A DNA stretch of 64,000 nucleotides, from positions 3,881,001 to 3,945,000 of the forward strand of contig JAGYVD010000004.1 of the NCBI GenBank assembly GCA_021209875.1, in the 5' to 3' direction. A program made the translations under genes and the position numbers. Source of the stretch: Rosellinia necatrix. Taxonomy: Eukaryota; Ascomycota; Sordariomycetes; Xylariales; Xylariaceae. Positions 7,827 through 58,785 of the stretch are shown piece by piece. The notes beneath the pieces are model-generated. The model saw only the letters and a program-made list of their open reading frames with translations. It had not been told where the DNA came from and did not search any database. The number at the start of each line of letters is the position of its first letter. Positions within the stretch are counted from its first letter, which is position 1.

Positions 7827-10800
7827 ATGACATATCCCGGTCACCTCCCCCACGGGCAACAGCTGGGGCTCAACCAGCCAAACCACCAGCCAAACCATCA
7901 TCCGCCAAACCACCAGTCAAATCATCATCCGCCAAACCACCAACAGAACCACCACCAGAACCCCCATCAAAATCGCCATCAATATGGCGCCGAATCGCAC
8001 AATGCCTGGTCGAGCGCGCACGCAAACAGTCCTCAACACATGCAGAACATGCAGAACATGCAAAGCATGCAGAACATGCAAAACATACAGAATATACAGA
8101 ACATGCAAAACATGCAAAGCATGCAAAGCATGCATAACATGCAGAGTGTACAGGGAATGCAGCAGCATCGGCAGCATCAGCAGCAGCACAGCCAGCATCA
8201 ACACCAGCAGCAGCACCAGCAGCAGCACCAGCACCAGTATCACAACAGTATGACCTTTGCGCCACCCGCTGCCGCCGCCGTATACCCTCATCCGATCCCA
8301 CAACAACAAGCCCTTCCGAGCCCGAACCAAGTGCCGGTATCACACCACGGAATCCCGATCTCGCACCCACAATCTCATCGGCAACATCAACACATACCAT
8401 CATTACAACAACAACAACAACAACAACAACAACAGCCACAGCCACAGCAGCAGCAGCAACAGCATCAGCAGCAGCAGCCACAGCATCAGCAGCAACAGCA
8501 TCATGCGAACTATCGATTTCATGGCTACGACTCCTCCTTCGACCAGAGGCCCTATGTCCAACCCTCGCCACACAATCATATGCACCCCACCGCTCAGATG
8601 ATGCAATCGAATCAACAGTCTATGCAACGACCTGTCCATCCCCCAACAAATCACTATGCGCAACAGCAGCAGCAGCAGCAGCAGCAACAACAACAACAAC
8701 AACAACATCAACAACATCAACAACAACATCAACAACATCAACAACAACATCAACAACAGCAACAACCGCAACGAATGGATTGGCAACAGATGCCTCCCCC
8801 GGTCTCCGTTGCCTTACCCTCGCCCTCTCTATATCAGACTGCCCAGTCTCAGGCCCAGCCTCAGGCCCAGCCTCCGCCTCCGCCTCAGCTTCAACACCAA
8901 CCTCACATACCGCAACACGTCAGCTCGCCCGTAGCGGCCAATTCGCCGCAGATCCAGCATCAACGTGTTAACTCGCCTGTCATGCCTCATTCACCCCATC
9001 TTTCGCCTCATGTCGCATCAAACAACCAGTATAACAGGACTCCCGGCGCAAACGCCCGCATTGAGCAAGCCGCTAGAGTGTCCGCGAGCCCACGTCTTAC
9101 GTCCCAGACTTTCACACGAAGCCCCAGCGTGAGCTCTACGAGGTCGCCCGCCCTAGCGCCCGCCCTTATCCCACATCAGGACACCATCTCGCTGTTGATA
9201 TGCATGGCCGAAGAGTTCTTCACCAAGGCCCGAAAAGGGGTTCGAGATGTCGCAAGGAATCTAGACGAGAGGAGTGTGCATGACTATCAGAAGTTGATTG
9301 CCACCGGCCTCGCTTGTCTCGAAGTGGCTATTGGGAGCAACAAGTTGGCCCCGCGTTTGGAAGCCCTGGCCCGACTTCGATATGCCAACATACTATGTAC
9401 CGAGACGAATAACGTCATGGAAGCCGAAACAGCCCTGACCAAGGGTATCACTCTTTGCGAGAGGGTATGTAACCTCGTCTCTGATGTCCCATTGTATGCA
9501 CAGCCTCATAACTTATAATACAGAACCGGTTTACCGATCTGAAGTATTGTATGCACTTCCTGCAAGCTCAATTGCTTTTCTCCCAGCACAAAGAGAAGGC
9601 TGCCCTGATTTCTGTAGATGCGCGCATTCGAGATGCCGAGATGTAAGTTGTCCCCGTCCCTGTTTCCCTGTTGCCAATAACCGCGAAATCTAACGGCTCT
9701 GATAGAGTGAAACACACGCACTGGGTGTACGCATTCCGATTCTTGAAGACGTCGTTCTACTTACAATCACTGAACCCGACCGAGGCCCACGCCTTAGAAA
9801 ATCTAAGGGCTATCGTAATATTGGCCGACCATCGGGGTGATCTCCCTATTTACGCTATCGCTAGTTTGCTCGAAGCCCTCAGCCATCTTAGGGCGATGAA
9901 GGATGACGCCATTGTACGCATACAGGCTTGTATCGCCCAGGCATCTAAATATCAACTGGAGGATTCCATGTCCATTATGCAGCTAGACGTATTGCAGCTC
10001 GTCTTAGATCTCACCTGCAGCCTACAGCAGAAATCGCCTCAAATGATATCGCAAAAGCTGAAGGCCTTGCAAGATAAGATGGATGCCTCCCTAGACGATT
10101 CGAAATGGGACTCGCAAGACAGGCAACTTCTACTACCAATCCGCAAGCAAGCCATCAACCAACACATCATCAGCTCTGACACGTCAAACATAATACGCCC
10201 CGGTCAGGAAGGCGACGACTACGACTACCTTGCCATGTCCTTATGGAGCAAACTAGAGGCATTTACTATTACGTAAGAATCGCCGCATAGACTTTTCGCC
10301 TTGTTGCTAACGTAACCCATAGATACACCTACAGCGGCCTTGCTTTCCTCTACCAACAACCTCGCAATGACCAAAAGGTCATGTCTCATTGGGAAGAAGC
10401 ATTGGGTCAGCTACGGAAAAGTAAGAAATTGATCTAACTACCCATAACCCTTGACATTTCTCCTGACCTTTGTACTCCGTGCCAGATCGAACTAAAATCA
10501 GGGGACGGGCTTATTCCCTGGAAGACGCAGTCCAACACGTGGACTGGGAATCAGAGGCTGCGTGTTATCTACACATTCTTCGCGGCTTACTTTTGGCCAC
10601 CTCCACGAAGTGGGATGAGGTGAAATACTGCGTCTCACAATTGGACGCCATGGTAGCACCTACGTCCGGCAGCACGGTGGCGCTCTATTCTATGTATCTA
10701 AAAGGCGTCTACCACCAGGGGACTGGAAACCTCGAAGCTGCTATTGACATCTACAGCCACCCAAAATTTGCCATCAATGTCGACGAGGCGCGAGGGGGAC

Positions 10801-46073: not shown

Positions 46074-46223
46074 GGTTGGTTAGCTCAGTTGGTTAGAGCG
46101 TCGTATGTTTCCCCGCTCCCAGCTTTCAATGATCGATCATTGCTAACCCACCTTAGGTACTAATACAGAATTCTCCTGTACTAAGTAATGCGAAGGTCAT
46201 GAGTTCGACCCTCATACTGACCA
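46074..46223 (+). tRNA. tRNA-Ile (AAU), copy 1, with tRNA intron plus GT-AG insert
   Basis: The D arm (GCTC/GAGC), T arm (ATGAG TTCGACC CTCAT) and acceptor arm (GGTTGGT with ACTGACC, two wobble pairs) are intact, followed by discriminator A at 46223. Removing 46103-46156 and then 46166-46187 gives anticodon stem TCGTA/TGCGA and loop CTAATAA with anticodon AAT at 46162-46164. The second removed piece is an ordinary tRNA intron after position 37 and contains GTACTA, which largely pairs with the anticodon region. Without removing the first piece there is no U33 and no proper anticodon stem-loop. A-box (TAGCTCAGTTGG) and B-box (GTTCGACCC) sequences are good, and a T5 terminator follows. Confidence 0.8.
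46103..46156 (+). other. 54-nt spliceosomal-looking insert in tRNA-Ile copy 1
   Basis: It begins GTATGT, contains GCTAAC with CCACCTTAG following, and ends TTAG. It sits between tRNA positions 28 and 29, with GTA on both sides so that the exact boundary can slide by three bases. It includes a 16-base perfect palindrome (CAATGATCGATCATTG) just before the branch-like CTAAC. Confidence 0.75.
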
Positions 46224-46233
46224 CTTAACTCTC

Positions 46234-46238
46234 TTTTT
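46234..46238 (+). terminator. Pol III T-run terminator of tRNA-Ile copy 1
   Basis: TTTTT lies 11 bases past the tRNA 3' end. Confidence 0.7.
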
Positions 46239-46605
46239 GAAAAATTTGCCTCTTTTTCCCAAAGTTTATTTTTCTTTATGTTTTTTTTTCCTGCTCTACT
46301 TCGACCCCTACATAATGACAAACGTGAAGTTGATGTTATTATATGTAGTTGATGCTTCTTTTTTTAAATTCTACACCCTTTATTTATGATGCTTCTGATT
46401 AACTATAATTAGCAAGCTGGGAGATAGAAATAGTGTATATATACTCTGTACTGGCACTTTTAACCGAAATCCGCGAGCCTCCTTTTCCATTTTCATCTAT
46501 TTGTTTATGTAAACACTAGCTAGATATTTGTGTTCTTTCAACTTATTGGTTGAGGACAGGATCTGTTTTCAGCATACCTATGCTTCATTTACCGCCGTGA
46601 TTTGT

Positions 46606-48435
46606 CTACGTGCTCTCAAGGTGGCGGCCTCTTCTTGTTGTTAGATCCTTCGATTGAATAGGCATCGAACCAGTTGCCGTACCTTCAAGGTATTTATACC
46701 CGATCTTAAAAACACTGTTCTCATTCTCAGTTCCTTCGAACGAATCAGGCTTTCTTTCGTGCCTCGGCTCTGGGCAAGAGGTAACGGTCTGCTTATCATC
46801 CTCAAGGGCACTGCCTGGACGCAGCTTGTTGTCGGTATCAATTTCGCTTCGGTGCTCGAGGAGTCCAACTAATAGATCAGTCTTCTGCGCGTTCACAAGT
46901 CCCGTAGCAGTGACCTATTCCGTCTGAATCTCACGCAAGCTTGTCTCGAGCTCTTGGTACCGTGTCTGAATGCCGAGTCGCCGGGCGGGGTCACCAAACA
47001 GAGCATCCGTGGCAAAATAGTTCGTGTGCTGACTTCCATCCTAAGCCAGGTGACACTGAAGGAAAACCGCAAGCGGGTCAGCCGCCGCAGGTATTTTCAC
47101 ATCCAACTTGAATGGTAGGTGGATACGCATTCGATCTCGTCGTGCGCCGCTAATCTGAAATGTTTCACCCTGGAGCAGCGTTTCGCGCTAGTCTTGCAGC
47201 TTATGCTTTGCTCGAGGGACTACGTTCCCACGCGTCGGCGAATTGCTGTCACTGAGAGCGCTTGAATGATGGCTCGCGTAGACAGTTTGGAGAGTCGTGG
47301 GGCTCATCAATTTCGCCGGGTCCGTCGATGCAGTTGCATGTTTGCGGCGTCTTGGTTTGATCACCACCCCGTATTTCTTGCGAACACTTTGGAGCTTGAC
47401 CCGGAGAGCGTTCTCCATGTTTGATATCTTTTTATCCCGCTCGTTTTCATCAAGAGCCTCGCTAATATTTTGAAGTCGTAGGGCGAAAAGTGCTTCTGCA
47501 ACGGCCATCTCACGTTCCATCGACAACAGTTGACGGGGGGACAATTGTGCGAAGGGACTGCTCCAATCTGCATACTCCTTCCCCTTTTCAATCGTTTGCG
47601 TCAGTTATTGAAGTGCTTGCATTATTTCTTCGGGGGAGAATGAGCTTGACGTCACTGATTCCGAGTTTTTTGTCGCTTGGCGTTGGCTGGATTGTTGTCT
47701 GCTTTGATCAGAGATGGGGGCACTACTTGGTGCTTCAGTAGACCCAGAATCGTGATCATTGAGGCAACGACCAGCCAATTTTTGTGTCCGAATCCGGCTT
47801 TTATGACTAATTTTAGCACTGGTCTTGTCTTGTATAGCGTTGGCAAGCGATAAGCCTCGTTGTAGAATCGAATTCGGATCCTCCCCTAAATAGCTTGCCG
47901 CCCACTCGAGGAACGGAGCAGAATAGCAGCTAATTTTCAAGTACTTCCCCAAGTTCGTTCCTTGTTTCCTATGAGCATGCAATTCTGCTAGTGGTGCTCC
48001 CTTCAGGCCATGCTCAAAGCCATTAGGTGTCCAGCGAGTATAGTGGCAGATGGATCCTTTTCTGAGAAAGTAGTCAACTGTGTACTTCTTGCCGAGTAAC
48101 TAGAGAATCATGTTGAGCCCAACGTCGAGGCGCATAGTGATCTCGCGGATGAGTGCCGGTTTCGCATAAAATATAGCTGCTGGATGATCAATGATGAGTG
48201 TGATTCTTTTCAGACATTGACCTTCCGTATCGAATTCCAGGCAAAATTTGATTTTCCCATCAGGCGGACTGATGACAACTTCTCCAAACTTGGCCGATTT
48301 GTCGAGGAATTTGGTGTAGGAATTGGCTGGACAAACACCCGCAACAATAAGAAACGACAGCGGCAGGATTTTGGCAACATCTGCAGAGAATTCATCATGA
48401 AATCTTTTCAGTTCTTTCGACCAGCGCGTTGTCAT
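46606..48435 (-). pseudogene. Unknown gene of about 610 codons interrupted by five in-frame TAG/TAA codons
   Basis: One minus-strand reading frame is coherent from 48435 to 46606, with stops only at 48100-48102 (TAG), 47605-47607 (TAA), 47188-47190 (TAG), 47041-47043 (TAG) and 46915-46917 (TAG), ending in TAG at 46606. No frameshift is needed anywhere between. The text between the stops reads like ordinary protein: LIVAGVCPANSY, DKSAKFGEVVISPPDGKIKF, KYTVDYFLRKGSICHYTRW, NGFEHGLKGAPLAELHAHRK, APFLEWAASYLGEDPNS, then SMEREMAVAEALFALRLQNI. I do not recognise the family; it looks like a fungal accessory protein with coiled-coil tendency in the last third. All stops are CAG/CAA-to-TAG/TAA type, as C-to-T change in CpA (repeat-induced point mutation) would produce. 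The frame probably extends upstream of 48435 through ALFGYDWHWRAECSDDR after one more stop or shift. Confidence 0.7.
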
Positions 48436-48948
48436 ACATTGTGGTTTGCGGCGATCATCTGAGCATTCGGCACGCCAGTGCCAATCGTAACCAAAGAGTG
48501 CTCATTTTAACAAGGCGATACTTGAGCATAGCATCAAAACAAACCGAAGCCTGCATGATTCAAGTATTCTCAATATTTCGTGACAGACGATCGTGTGTAG
48601 GGTTAATTAGTTGGTACATGCTCATCCTCAAAAGCTCTGTCGCAGTACTGGATGTACTCAAGGACGTCTGATTACCGGTGTCGTGTCTTTGACTTGTCTT
48701 GTGGTAGGGGAAACCAAGGGGTGACATGCAAATAAGCTGTGTTGAAAGTGATGATGATGAGAGAAGGTGCCAGAGGGGTCAAGACAGATTTGAAGCTAGC
48801 AGTTGACATGGTTAGTGAAACATGCGGACCGAATCGGTTTAGAGGTACAAGCCTGTGGACCCTATGATACGGGCATGGCCGGGTACTACCTAGGTACGTA
48901 CTGTACTGCCAAGGACTCCGATAAGAGCTTCTGATGTCCAACAATTAC

Positions 48949-49104
48949 GGTCAGTTAGCTCAGTTGGTTAGAGCGTCGTACGTTGCCCTCGACATTCCTT
49001 TGCTGAATTGACAATGAAGACTAACATGCCACAGGTACTAATACAGCAGAATACTATTGTATTAAGTAATGCGAAGGTCATGAGTTCGACCCTCATACCG
49101 ACCA
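48949..49104 (+). tRNA. tRNA-Ile (AAU), copy 2, with tRNA intron plus GT-AG insert
   Basis: The fold is as in copy 1. The GT-AG insert is 48978-49034 and the canonical intron 49044-49068, leaving anticodon AAT at 49040-49042. The canonical intron contains GTATTA, fully complementary to the TAATAC of the anticodon loop region, as usual for eukaryotic tRNA introns. The acceptor stem is GGTCAGT with ACCGACC, which leaves one A-C mismatch at pair 5-68, so this copy may be less active than the others. A and B boxes are intact. Confidence 0.75.
48978..49034 (+). other. 57-nt spliceosomal-looking insert in tRNA-Ile copy 2
   Basis: Starts GTACGT, carries GACTAAC 9 bases before the terminal ACAG, and is again flanked by GTA on the right and CGTA overlap on the left. 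Apart from the splice-like motifs it shows no similarity to the inserts of copies 1 and 3. Confidence 0.75.
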
Positions 49105-49702
49105 CAAACTCTCTTTTTGTGCTGGCCCTGTAGACCAAGAAATTTTTTTTTTTTTTAACGGCCGTGTTAGGTGCAAAGGTGCCACTAGACCCACCTGGGT
49201 CACCTATATGTATATAGTAGGTATCACACTGTCTGCGCCATATGCATTACACTTAGATACCGACAGAATATAACCTTTAACCTTGAGAAATAGGTAGTGG
49301 AGCAACGTCCAAACTGAGGTTGTATTTTCTAGGTTCTGTAGCTAGGTATGGCTAGTGGGGGTATAGGTATCTCCTTGCTAGAACTATTAAATGCTACTAA
49401 CAGGCCGCTTTTATTGTAGGAGGGAAGAGTAAGCTTTTTCTTTATTAGACGCATGATATTACAGGTTATATATCATAGAAGCAATAGTGGCTGTAGGTGC
49501 AATGACTAACAAGTCCCATCTACTTGAAGAAAAGAGGAAAAGAGAAAGTATTCTGGGTAGGAATTCTGGTAGGGAAATACATGGATTGTGTGTTGCGTAC
49601 TGACCACTCTGTACAGGGCTAATACCAGGTACGTACCTAATCGGCTAGCCACGCCATGACATTATATATGGTAATAAGAAGATATCTACTCAACAATTAA
49701 CC
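49105..49702. other. Spacer between tRNA-Ile copies 2 and 3
   Basis: Nothing recognisable apart from a 14-base T run near 49143 and AT-rich DNA. Confidence 0.5.
49114..49118 (+). terminator. Pol III T-run terminator of tRNA-Ile copy 2
   Basis: TTTTT ten bases past the tRNA 3' end. Confidence 0.7.
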
Positions 49703-49852
49703 GGTTGGTTAGCTCAGTTGGTTAGAGCGTCGTATGTCATTCTTACCCACTGTCAGAAAAAATATCCACTAACCCGCCACAGGTACTAATACAGCAGAAT
49801 ACTACTGTACTAAGTAATGCGAAGGTCATGAGTTCGACCCTCATACTGACCA
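49703..49852 (+). tRNA. tRNA-Ile (AAU), copy 3, with tRNA intron plus GT-AG insert
   Basis: Acceptor, D and T arms are identical to copy 1. The GT-AG insert is 49732-49782 and the canonical intron 49792-49816, leaving anticodon AAT at 49788-49790. The mature sequence equals that of copy 1, whereas the inserts differ. The bases just upstream (CAACAATTAACCGG) also resemble those of copy 1. A T5 terminator follows at 49861. Confidence 0.8.
49732..49782 (+). other. 51-nt spliceosomal-looking insert in tRNA-Ile copy 3
   Basis: Starts GTATGT, carries CACTAAC 9 bases before the terminal ACAG, and sits at exactly the same tRNA position as in copies 1 and 2. Confidence 0.75.
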
Positions 49853-49860
49853 CAACTATC

Positions 49861-49865
49861 TTTTT
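49861..49865 (+). terminator. Pol III T-run terminator of tRNA-Ile copy 3
   Basis: TTTTT eight bases past the tRNA 3' end. Confidence 0.7.
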
Positions 49866-58680: not shown

Positions 58681-58785
58681 TCCGAATTGGTGTAGTGGCT
58701 AACATTTGACGCTCTCATCCTTATCACTTCACTTGTGATCTAGAACGGTGCCGTCAAGCCCGGGGTTCGATTCCCCGATTCGGAG
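58681..58785 (+). tRNA. tRNA-Glu (CUC) with an ordinary intron
   Basis: The acceptor stem TCCGAAT pairs fully with ATTCGGA, with discriminator G. The anticodon stem TGACG/CGTCA encloses loop C-T-CTC-A with anticodon CTC at about 58713-58715. An intron of about 33 nt follows position 37 and contains a small hairpin (ATCAC...GTGAT). The B box GGTTCGATTCC is perfect. This is the standard eukaryotic layout and a useful internal contrast with the three tRNA-Ile genes. Confidence 0.88.

Follow-up and report, generated by a model that had tools for sequence, protein, structure and literature searches.

Three tRNA-Ile(AAU) genes, each split at two places, lie in a 64,000-nucleotide (nt) stretch of the genome of the ascomycete Rosellinia necatrix. 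This stretch is called the window here and belongs to contig C8 of the 49.1-Mb, 12-contig genome; coordinates given without a contig are those of the window, and positions within the cloverleaf were counted by hand. The original prediction, made from the sequence, was that each gene contains a GT-AG segment of 51-57 nt between positions 28 and 29 in addition to an ordinary tRNA intron of 22-25 nt at 37/38. This was borne out by the coordinates and by ARAGORN after excision. The genes, their segments and the T runs behind them, which resemble terminators of RNA polymerase III (Pol III), are as follows.

46074..46223, + strand: tRNA-Ile(AAU) copy 1, with exons 46074-46102, 46157-46165 and 46188-46223; called tRNA-Ile(aat) by ARAGORN after both excisions
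46103..46156, + strand: GT-AG insert of copy 1, 54 nt, position 28/29; GTATGT, CTAAC ending 9 nt before the end, TAG
46166..46187, + strand: ordinary 37/38 tRNA intron of copy 1, 22 nt, without GT-AG
46234..46238, + strand: T5 run after copy 1, Pol III terminator-like, by direct sequence reading
48949..49104, + strand: tRNA-Ile(AAU) copy 2; the acceptor stem has A5.C68
48978..49034, + strand: GT-AG insert of copy 2, 57 nt, position 28/29; GTACGT, CTAAC ending 9 nt before the end, CAG
49044..49068, + strand: ordinary 37/38 tRNA intron of copy 2, 25 nt, without GT-AG
49114..49118, + strand: T5 run after copy 2, Pol III terminator-like, by direct sequence reading
49703..49852, + strand: tRNA-Ile(AAU) copy 3; called tRNA-Ile(aat) by ARAGORN after both excisions
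49732..49782, + strand: GT-AG insert of copy 3, 51 nt, position 28/29; GTATGT, CTAAC ending 9 nt before the end, CAG; related to the insert of an Ile gene on contig C4 (L002)
49792..49816, + strand: ordinary 37/38 tRNA intron of copy 3, 25 nt, without GT-AG
49861..49865, + strand: T5 run after copy 3, Pol III terminator-like, by direct sequence reading

With its intron option off, ARAGORN found no tRNA anywhere in the window, including the three unspliced Ile genes, and Rfam detected none of the three at its gathering score. Once both segments were excised, each gene was called tRNA-Ile(aat) with introns off. The predicted GTAYGT start, CTAAC box and AG end were present in each window insert, the CTAAC always ending 9 nt before the 3' border, and the predicted T5 run was found behind each gene.

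Five Ile(AAU) genes with an intact body were found in the whole genome, and four of them are interrupted. Besides the three window copies, the fourth is L002 (C4:4102952-4103105), which has a 52-nt insert with a core identity of 0.83 to the insert of window copy 3 and a T4 run only as its terminator. An acceptor variant is common to Ile copies 2 and 4. The search for an uninterrupted isoacceptor, as originally suggested, gave one gene, L001 (C4:1213549-1213643), which has the 37/38 intron only and reads continuously as GCGTC-GTACTAATA. Because L001 is a precise empty site, the insert borders in the Ile genes are fixed. Abundant intact Ile(AAU) genes elsewhere, which had been named as grounds for calling the window loci decayed, were not seen, since the insert is absent in just one of the five body-intact genes. 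Seven decayed Ile-like copies were also found; the insert is clearly absent in five, and two are too eroded in the 5' half to judge. The decayed copies are partly clustered (C1:6062660-6064999, C9:3941810-3942469, C1:2107528 and C11:522773), and at C1:6062660 CACAG precedes GCACTGATA, so that this one may be a decayed interrupted copy.

A check of long and split tRNA matches identified three further families with inserts, tRNA-Lys(CUU), tRNA-Arg(CCU) and tRNA-Thr(AGU), giving at least 11 interrupted tRNA genes in the genome (four Ile, four Lys, two Thr and one Arg). Seven tRNA-Lys(CUU) genes were found, all matched with no mismatch by a pattern search that allowed up to 3. L090-L092 are uninterrupted, and L088, L089, L093 and L094 have inserts in the T stem between positions 52 and 53 (lengths in the family 59, 59, 66 and 84 nt; exon junction TTGCGG/GTTCGACC). 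The Lys inserts end in AG and the downstream exon begins with GTTCGA, so the B box GGTTCGA is kept, its first G being supplied by the last base of the intron. The one tRNA-Arg(CCU) gene found has its D arm split by a 57-nt insert (21/22; junction AATGGTA/GCGTATAG) and also has an ordinary 37/38 intron. When up to 2 mismatches are allowed, its 20-nt 5' exon has a single match in the genome, and this search, which a more divergent 5' exon would escape, found no uninterrupted Arg(CCU) gene. Since there is no paralogue, the borders of the Arg insert rest on the tRNA fold. Four tRNA-Thr(AGU) genes were found: L097 and L098 are uninterrupted, and an adjoining pair has inserts of 54 and 53 nt between positions 25 and 26 (exon junction GAGC/GCATCAC). 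After excision in silico, ARAGORN without introns called the Lys genes tRNA-Lys(ctt) and the Thr genes tRNA-Thr(agt). When the Arg insert alone was excised and introns were allowed, the gene was called Arg(cct) with a 30-nt intron after position 37.

A conserved 3' trailer, GCATCGGG-CTCAATT-CCYGATGC, was observed behind all seven Lys(CUU) genes found (L088-L094; C1, C2, C4 and C10). Judged by eye, it can pair with the acceptor 3' strand, with one compensatory variant in L093 (GCATTGGG/CCTAATGC), and it is followed by a second hairpin of variable sequence.

All 11 inserts, 51-84 nt long, start with GTRNGT and end with AG, and the last base of their YTAAY box stands 9-12 nt before the end. The branch box deviates from CTAAC in L088 (TTAAC), in L089 and L124 (CTAAT) and in L093 (TTAAT). 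The three signals never occurred together in 200,000 shufflings of each of nine inserts. For the 10 Ile, Lys and Thr inserts, the uninterrupted paralogue set the borders to 2-5 equivalent registers, and the GT-AG register was among them. The position differs among the four families: 28/29 in Ile, 52/53 in Lys, 21/22 in Arg and 25/26 in Thr. According to a survey of fungal U3 introns, the branch in fungi is RCTRAY and lies 6-36 nt from the acceptor (PMC5832005). The tRNA inserts have GT and AG at the borders, an extended donor and a branch box inside this 6-36 nt range, as U2-type introns do. Three messenger RNA (mRNA) introns of the window were recovered via proteins of relatives. Their signals are GTAGGT/CTAAC/CAG, GTAAGA/CTAAC/TAG and GTAAGA/CTGAC/CAG, by which they are of the same kind as the tRNA inserts. 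A fourth mRNA intron, sought in the cohesin loader gene near 9464, gave no result.

The ordinary 37/38 introns served as an internal control. GT-AG was absent in every equivalent register of all 10 introns checked, which were five from Ile, three from Asp (54-56 nt), one from Ala and one from Arg, the last entered as 31 nt where ARAGORN gives 30; the introns of Lys-UUU, Met, Leu, Pro, Arg-UCG and Glu were left out of this set. A GT-AG origin of the split matches of three Asp genes and one Ala gene was rejected, as these are ordinary 37/38 introns without GT-AG. The tRNA-Asp(GUC) genes in question, L125-L127 (C4:1404963, C2:2134524 and C1:3013566), have long ordinary 37/38 introns of 54-56 nt, and an uninterrupted gene lies at C2:6227187. 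The fourth tRNA gene in the window, tRNA-Glu(CUC) at 58681-58785 (+), has no GT-AG insert, just an ordinary intron of 33 nt.

Removal by the tRNA splicing endonuclease was considered next to removal by the spliceosome. The endonuclease could excise the extra segment by itself, as in archaea, nucleomorphs and Cyanidioschyzon, for which cutting at non-canonical positions is described (PMC4090602), or it could remove both segments as one long intron, which is how ARAGORN with introns on reads most of the unspliced genes. The inserts were examined for a bulge-helix-bulge, with the geometry taken as a helix of 4 base pairs (bp) between two 3-nt bulges. A fully paired 4-bp central helix was present in one of the 11 inserts (Lys L089, in a shifted register), but the central helix together with both flanking helices was present in none of them across the 2-5 registers. 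The single-intron readings mostly give unrelated identities, namely Leu for Ile, Ser for Arg and Ile for Thr. Also, what is conserved at the four different positions is sequence signals and not structure, and those signals are absent from all 10 of the ordinary 37/38 introns checked. Excision by the endonuclease is considered very unlikely.

The exons of the 10 interrupted Ile, Lys and Thr genes were then compared with their uninterrupted references, with the single Arg gene standing outside this comparison. Exon identity was 1.000 in six genes; two others gave 0.986 and the last two 0.959. Mean flank identity was 0.57-0.64, about equal to or slightly over that of random 60-mers (0.57, sd 0.03); for Thr the flanks are those of the two uninterrupted genes only, and for Lys the downstream flanks start 40 nt past the gene, the trailer being conserved. 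Among 12 same-family pairs of insert cores, one was clearly related (Ile copy 3 and the C4 copy, z 6.6) and one was borderline (Ile copies 1 and 2, z 1.8). In most pairs the insert cores are unrelated. The Thr insert pair is related: it scores 8.0, where shuffled sequences average -0.6 (sd 2.6). The exon and flank identities indicate that the exons of the Ile, Lys and Thr genes are under purifying selection.

This comparison bears on the possibility that the interrupted copies are pseudogenes, either dead or little used, in which case the uninterrupted genes would supply the tRNAs and GT-AG would be a coincidence or a relic. Uninterrupted genes do exist for Ile, Lys and Thr (one, three and two), decayed tRNA copies are present in the genome, and an exon of Lys L089 has an extra C. 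Short insertions in the D or T arm of eukaryotic tRNA genes are usually read as pseudogenes (PMC4090602). However, the exons have kept 96-100% identity to their uninterrupted reference, whereas most inserts and flanks approach random sequence, and dead genes of such age would not be expected to retain their exons, which disfavors this explanation. Exon decay was not seen in the 10 Ile, Lys and Thr genes, with L089 differing by its one extra exon base. The insert is present in four of the five body-intact Ile genes and in none of the five decayed ones that could be assessed, and the search at up to 2 mismatches found no uninterrupted Arg(CCU) gene. Coincidence also fits poorly with signals in 11 of 11 inserts that did not arise in 200,000 shuffles of any of the nine tested. 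The genes were gathered by exon similarity, so badly decayed interrupted copies may be missed. We regard the pseudogene explanation as improbable.

If the interrupted genes work, the question is which polymerase transcribes them. They give a cloverleaf in ARAGORN after excision and have A and B boxes and a T run, and these boxes and T runs point to transcription by Pol III. The first tRNA exon is 20-52 nt long, and the insert sites leave the A and B boxes usable. U6 small nuclear RNA (snRNA) is a Pol III transcript, and in fission yeast its B box lies within the intron. Two U6 genes above the cut-off were found among the 47 of 2321 candidates that were scored, both with a GT-AG insert, and a third match, at 15 bits, was far under the cut-off.

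C8:2023303-2023455: U6 snRNA gene L075, with a GT-AG intron
C4:1597208-1597367: U6 snRNA gene L076, with a GT-AG intron

The U6 inserts are 53 and 60 nt long, lie at AGAAGAT-TAGCATGG and have GTGAGT, TACTAAC and CAG. They also contain a B-box-like sequence with GTTCGA. Provided that these two are its functional U6 genes, the fungus has to splice at least one Pol III transcript. Another possible explanation is that the interrupted tRNA genes are transcribed by RNA polymerase II (Pol II) and spliced like ordinary short non-coding RNAs, so that the spliceosome need not act on uncapped Pol III RNA. Yet the A and B boxes are kept and T runs stand at the ends of the genes. Moreover, such an intron in a Pol III-type gene has a precedent here in the U6 genes, as it does in Schizosaccharomyces pombe, whose intron-containing U6 is published (PMC10484740, where Tani and Ohshima are cited). 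Transcription by Pol II is held to be extremely improbable.

Taken together, the sequence data suggest that the inserts are very probably true spliceosomal introns of the U2-type, GT-AG class in working Pol III tRNA genes. The original prediction had allowed for the spliceosome acting on pre-tRNA, for another activity and for Pol II. The first is best supported by the same signals in 11 of 11 inserts, the U6 introns, the intact exons and the lack of a consistent bulge-helix-bulge. In the proposed mechanism, the Pol III primary transcript would be caught by the spliceosome in the nucleus, and the GT-AG intron would be released as a lariat. Folding could then take place of the anticodon stem in Ile, the D arm in Arg, the T arm in Lys and the join of the D arm and anticodon arm in Thr. 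In Ile(AAU) and Arg(CCU), the 37/38 intron would then be removed by the tRNA endonuclease and ligase. We infer that the spliceosome precedes the endonuclease because the anticodon stem (Ile) or the D stem (Arg) is split while the GT-AG intron is present. It is likely that a class of nuclear tRNAs matures via the spliceosome. It would comprise at least four isoacceptors at four sites, some needing two unrelated machines in a fixed order, and Arg(CCU) would be wholly spliceosome-dependent.

Several observations weigh against spliceosomal removal. With introns on, ARAGORN read the unspliced window genes as tRNA-Leu with a single intron of 74, 64 and 74 nt (anticodons aag, cag and aag in copies 1, 2 and 3), the unspliced Arg gene as Ser and the two unspliced Thr genes as Ile. 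For unspliced Lys L093 and L094 it gave Lys(ctt), with a single long intron close to 37/38. The Leu reading was set aside since the calls differ between copies with near-identical exons, and since ARAGORN is also wrong on the uninterrupted Ile gene, which it calls Thr with introns on and Tyr with them off. Two of the three mRNA donors are GTAAGA, in which the sixth base is unlike that of GTRNGT. In the Lys family, the downstream exon of L089 has the extra C, with which it is still called by ARAGORN, and the branch site of L093, TTAAT, is weak. Ile, Lys and Thr keep one, three and two uninterrupted genes, so splicing is not strictly needed for these isoacceptors. No insert was present in any of 20 matches to 5S ribosomal RNA (47 of 2452 candidates scored). 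Lastly, RNAfold models of two unspliced Ile precursors pair the branch region with the tRNA 5' end and give no cloverleaf, which could hinder recognition or splicing. In these models the branch region CUAACCCRCC of the inserts at 46103-46156 and 49732-49782 is complementary to the tRNA 5' end GGUUGGUUAG, and the predicted pairing is possibly incidental.

The 11 interrupted genes are a lower bound because the tRNA survey was incomplete. It scored 63 of 1701 candidates from the Rfam tRNA search, 40 of 94 from a BLAST with 24 tRNAs, and all 38 and all 31 from two BLASTs with 8 tRNAs each, which added one further interrupted family, Thr. There were 458 B-box matches, of which about 100 were listed and 30 were read. 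Outside the set that was read lie three split matches of Glu and Leu with a break near 37/38 (C3:1127067-1127182, C9:3476851-3476981 and C2:1525050-1525183), along with other weak or partial matches. Three loci of tRNA-Met, initiator and elongator, have a recognizable 3' part only (C9:4570443, C7:5504071 and C9:834783), and no 5' part was recognized within the approximately 120 nt read upstream. L044 and L045 (B boxes at C1:1356131 and C1:1356735) are adjoining, similar tRNA-like repeats with a good B box, in which no tRNA was called. As for the proteins of the window, the closest matches of its GET4 protein are proteins of Xylaria, Nemania and Hypoxylon argillaceum. Scans for relatives in genome contigs and viral contigs, collections that contain no fungi, gave no match.

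In a 2026 review, tRNA splicing is described as spliceosome-independent (PMC13149111). Spliceosomal introns in working tRNA genes, if true, would break this rule, and the spliceosome would be able to act on short, uncapped and strongly folded Pol III RNAs. The genes would offer a natural system for studying how introns enter structural RNA genes. Core parts of both translation and splicing would be tied to splicing capacity, as U6 here would also need the spliceosome. Gene finders can miss such genes, given that Rfam and ARAGORN without introns were blind to the three in the window and that ARAGORN with introns called them Leu. tRNAscan-SE 2.0 seeks non-canonical introns with an archaeal model (PMC8450103). 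No report of spliceosomal introns in tRNA genes was found in the open-access literature by title and start of abstract, a scope outside which subscription papers and preprints fall.

Spliceosomal introns are known in U6, U3 and ribosomal DNA (rDNA), and tRNA would be a new RNA class for them. The U6 introns of S. pombe and other fungi are also GT-AG introns in a Pol III transcript. However, U6 is a component of the spliceosome, whereas tRNAs are highly folded, keep internal A and B boxes and have splicing enzymes of their own. Genes of structural RNAs with introns of the mRNA type also include those of fungal U3 small nucleolar RNA and nuclear rDNA. In the case of U3, one genome can have paralogues with and without the intron (PMC5832005), and spliceosomal introns of nuclear rDNA are listed elsewhere (PMC11782384). 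Those are not tRNA genes, and some of the interrupted tRNAs here are also served by a second, unrelated splicing system. That system acts on the canonical eukaryotic 37/38 introns, which occur alongside the inserts in the Ile and Arg(CCU) genes but differ from them in position, in the absence of GT-AG (10 of 10 checked) and in their dependence on a structure-reading endonuclease. Archaea, nucleomorphs and Cyanidioschyzon merolae have non-canonical tRNA introns that resemble the inserts in their unusual positions, and a tRNA there can carry two or three introns (PMC4090602). The introns of archaea and C. merolae rely on a bulge-helix-bulge and those of the Guillardia nucleomorph are 3-24 nt long. 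The inserts described here, in contrast, are 51-84 nt long and have splice and branch signals in place of a consistent bulge-helix-bulge.

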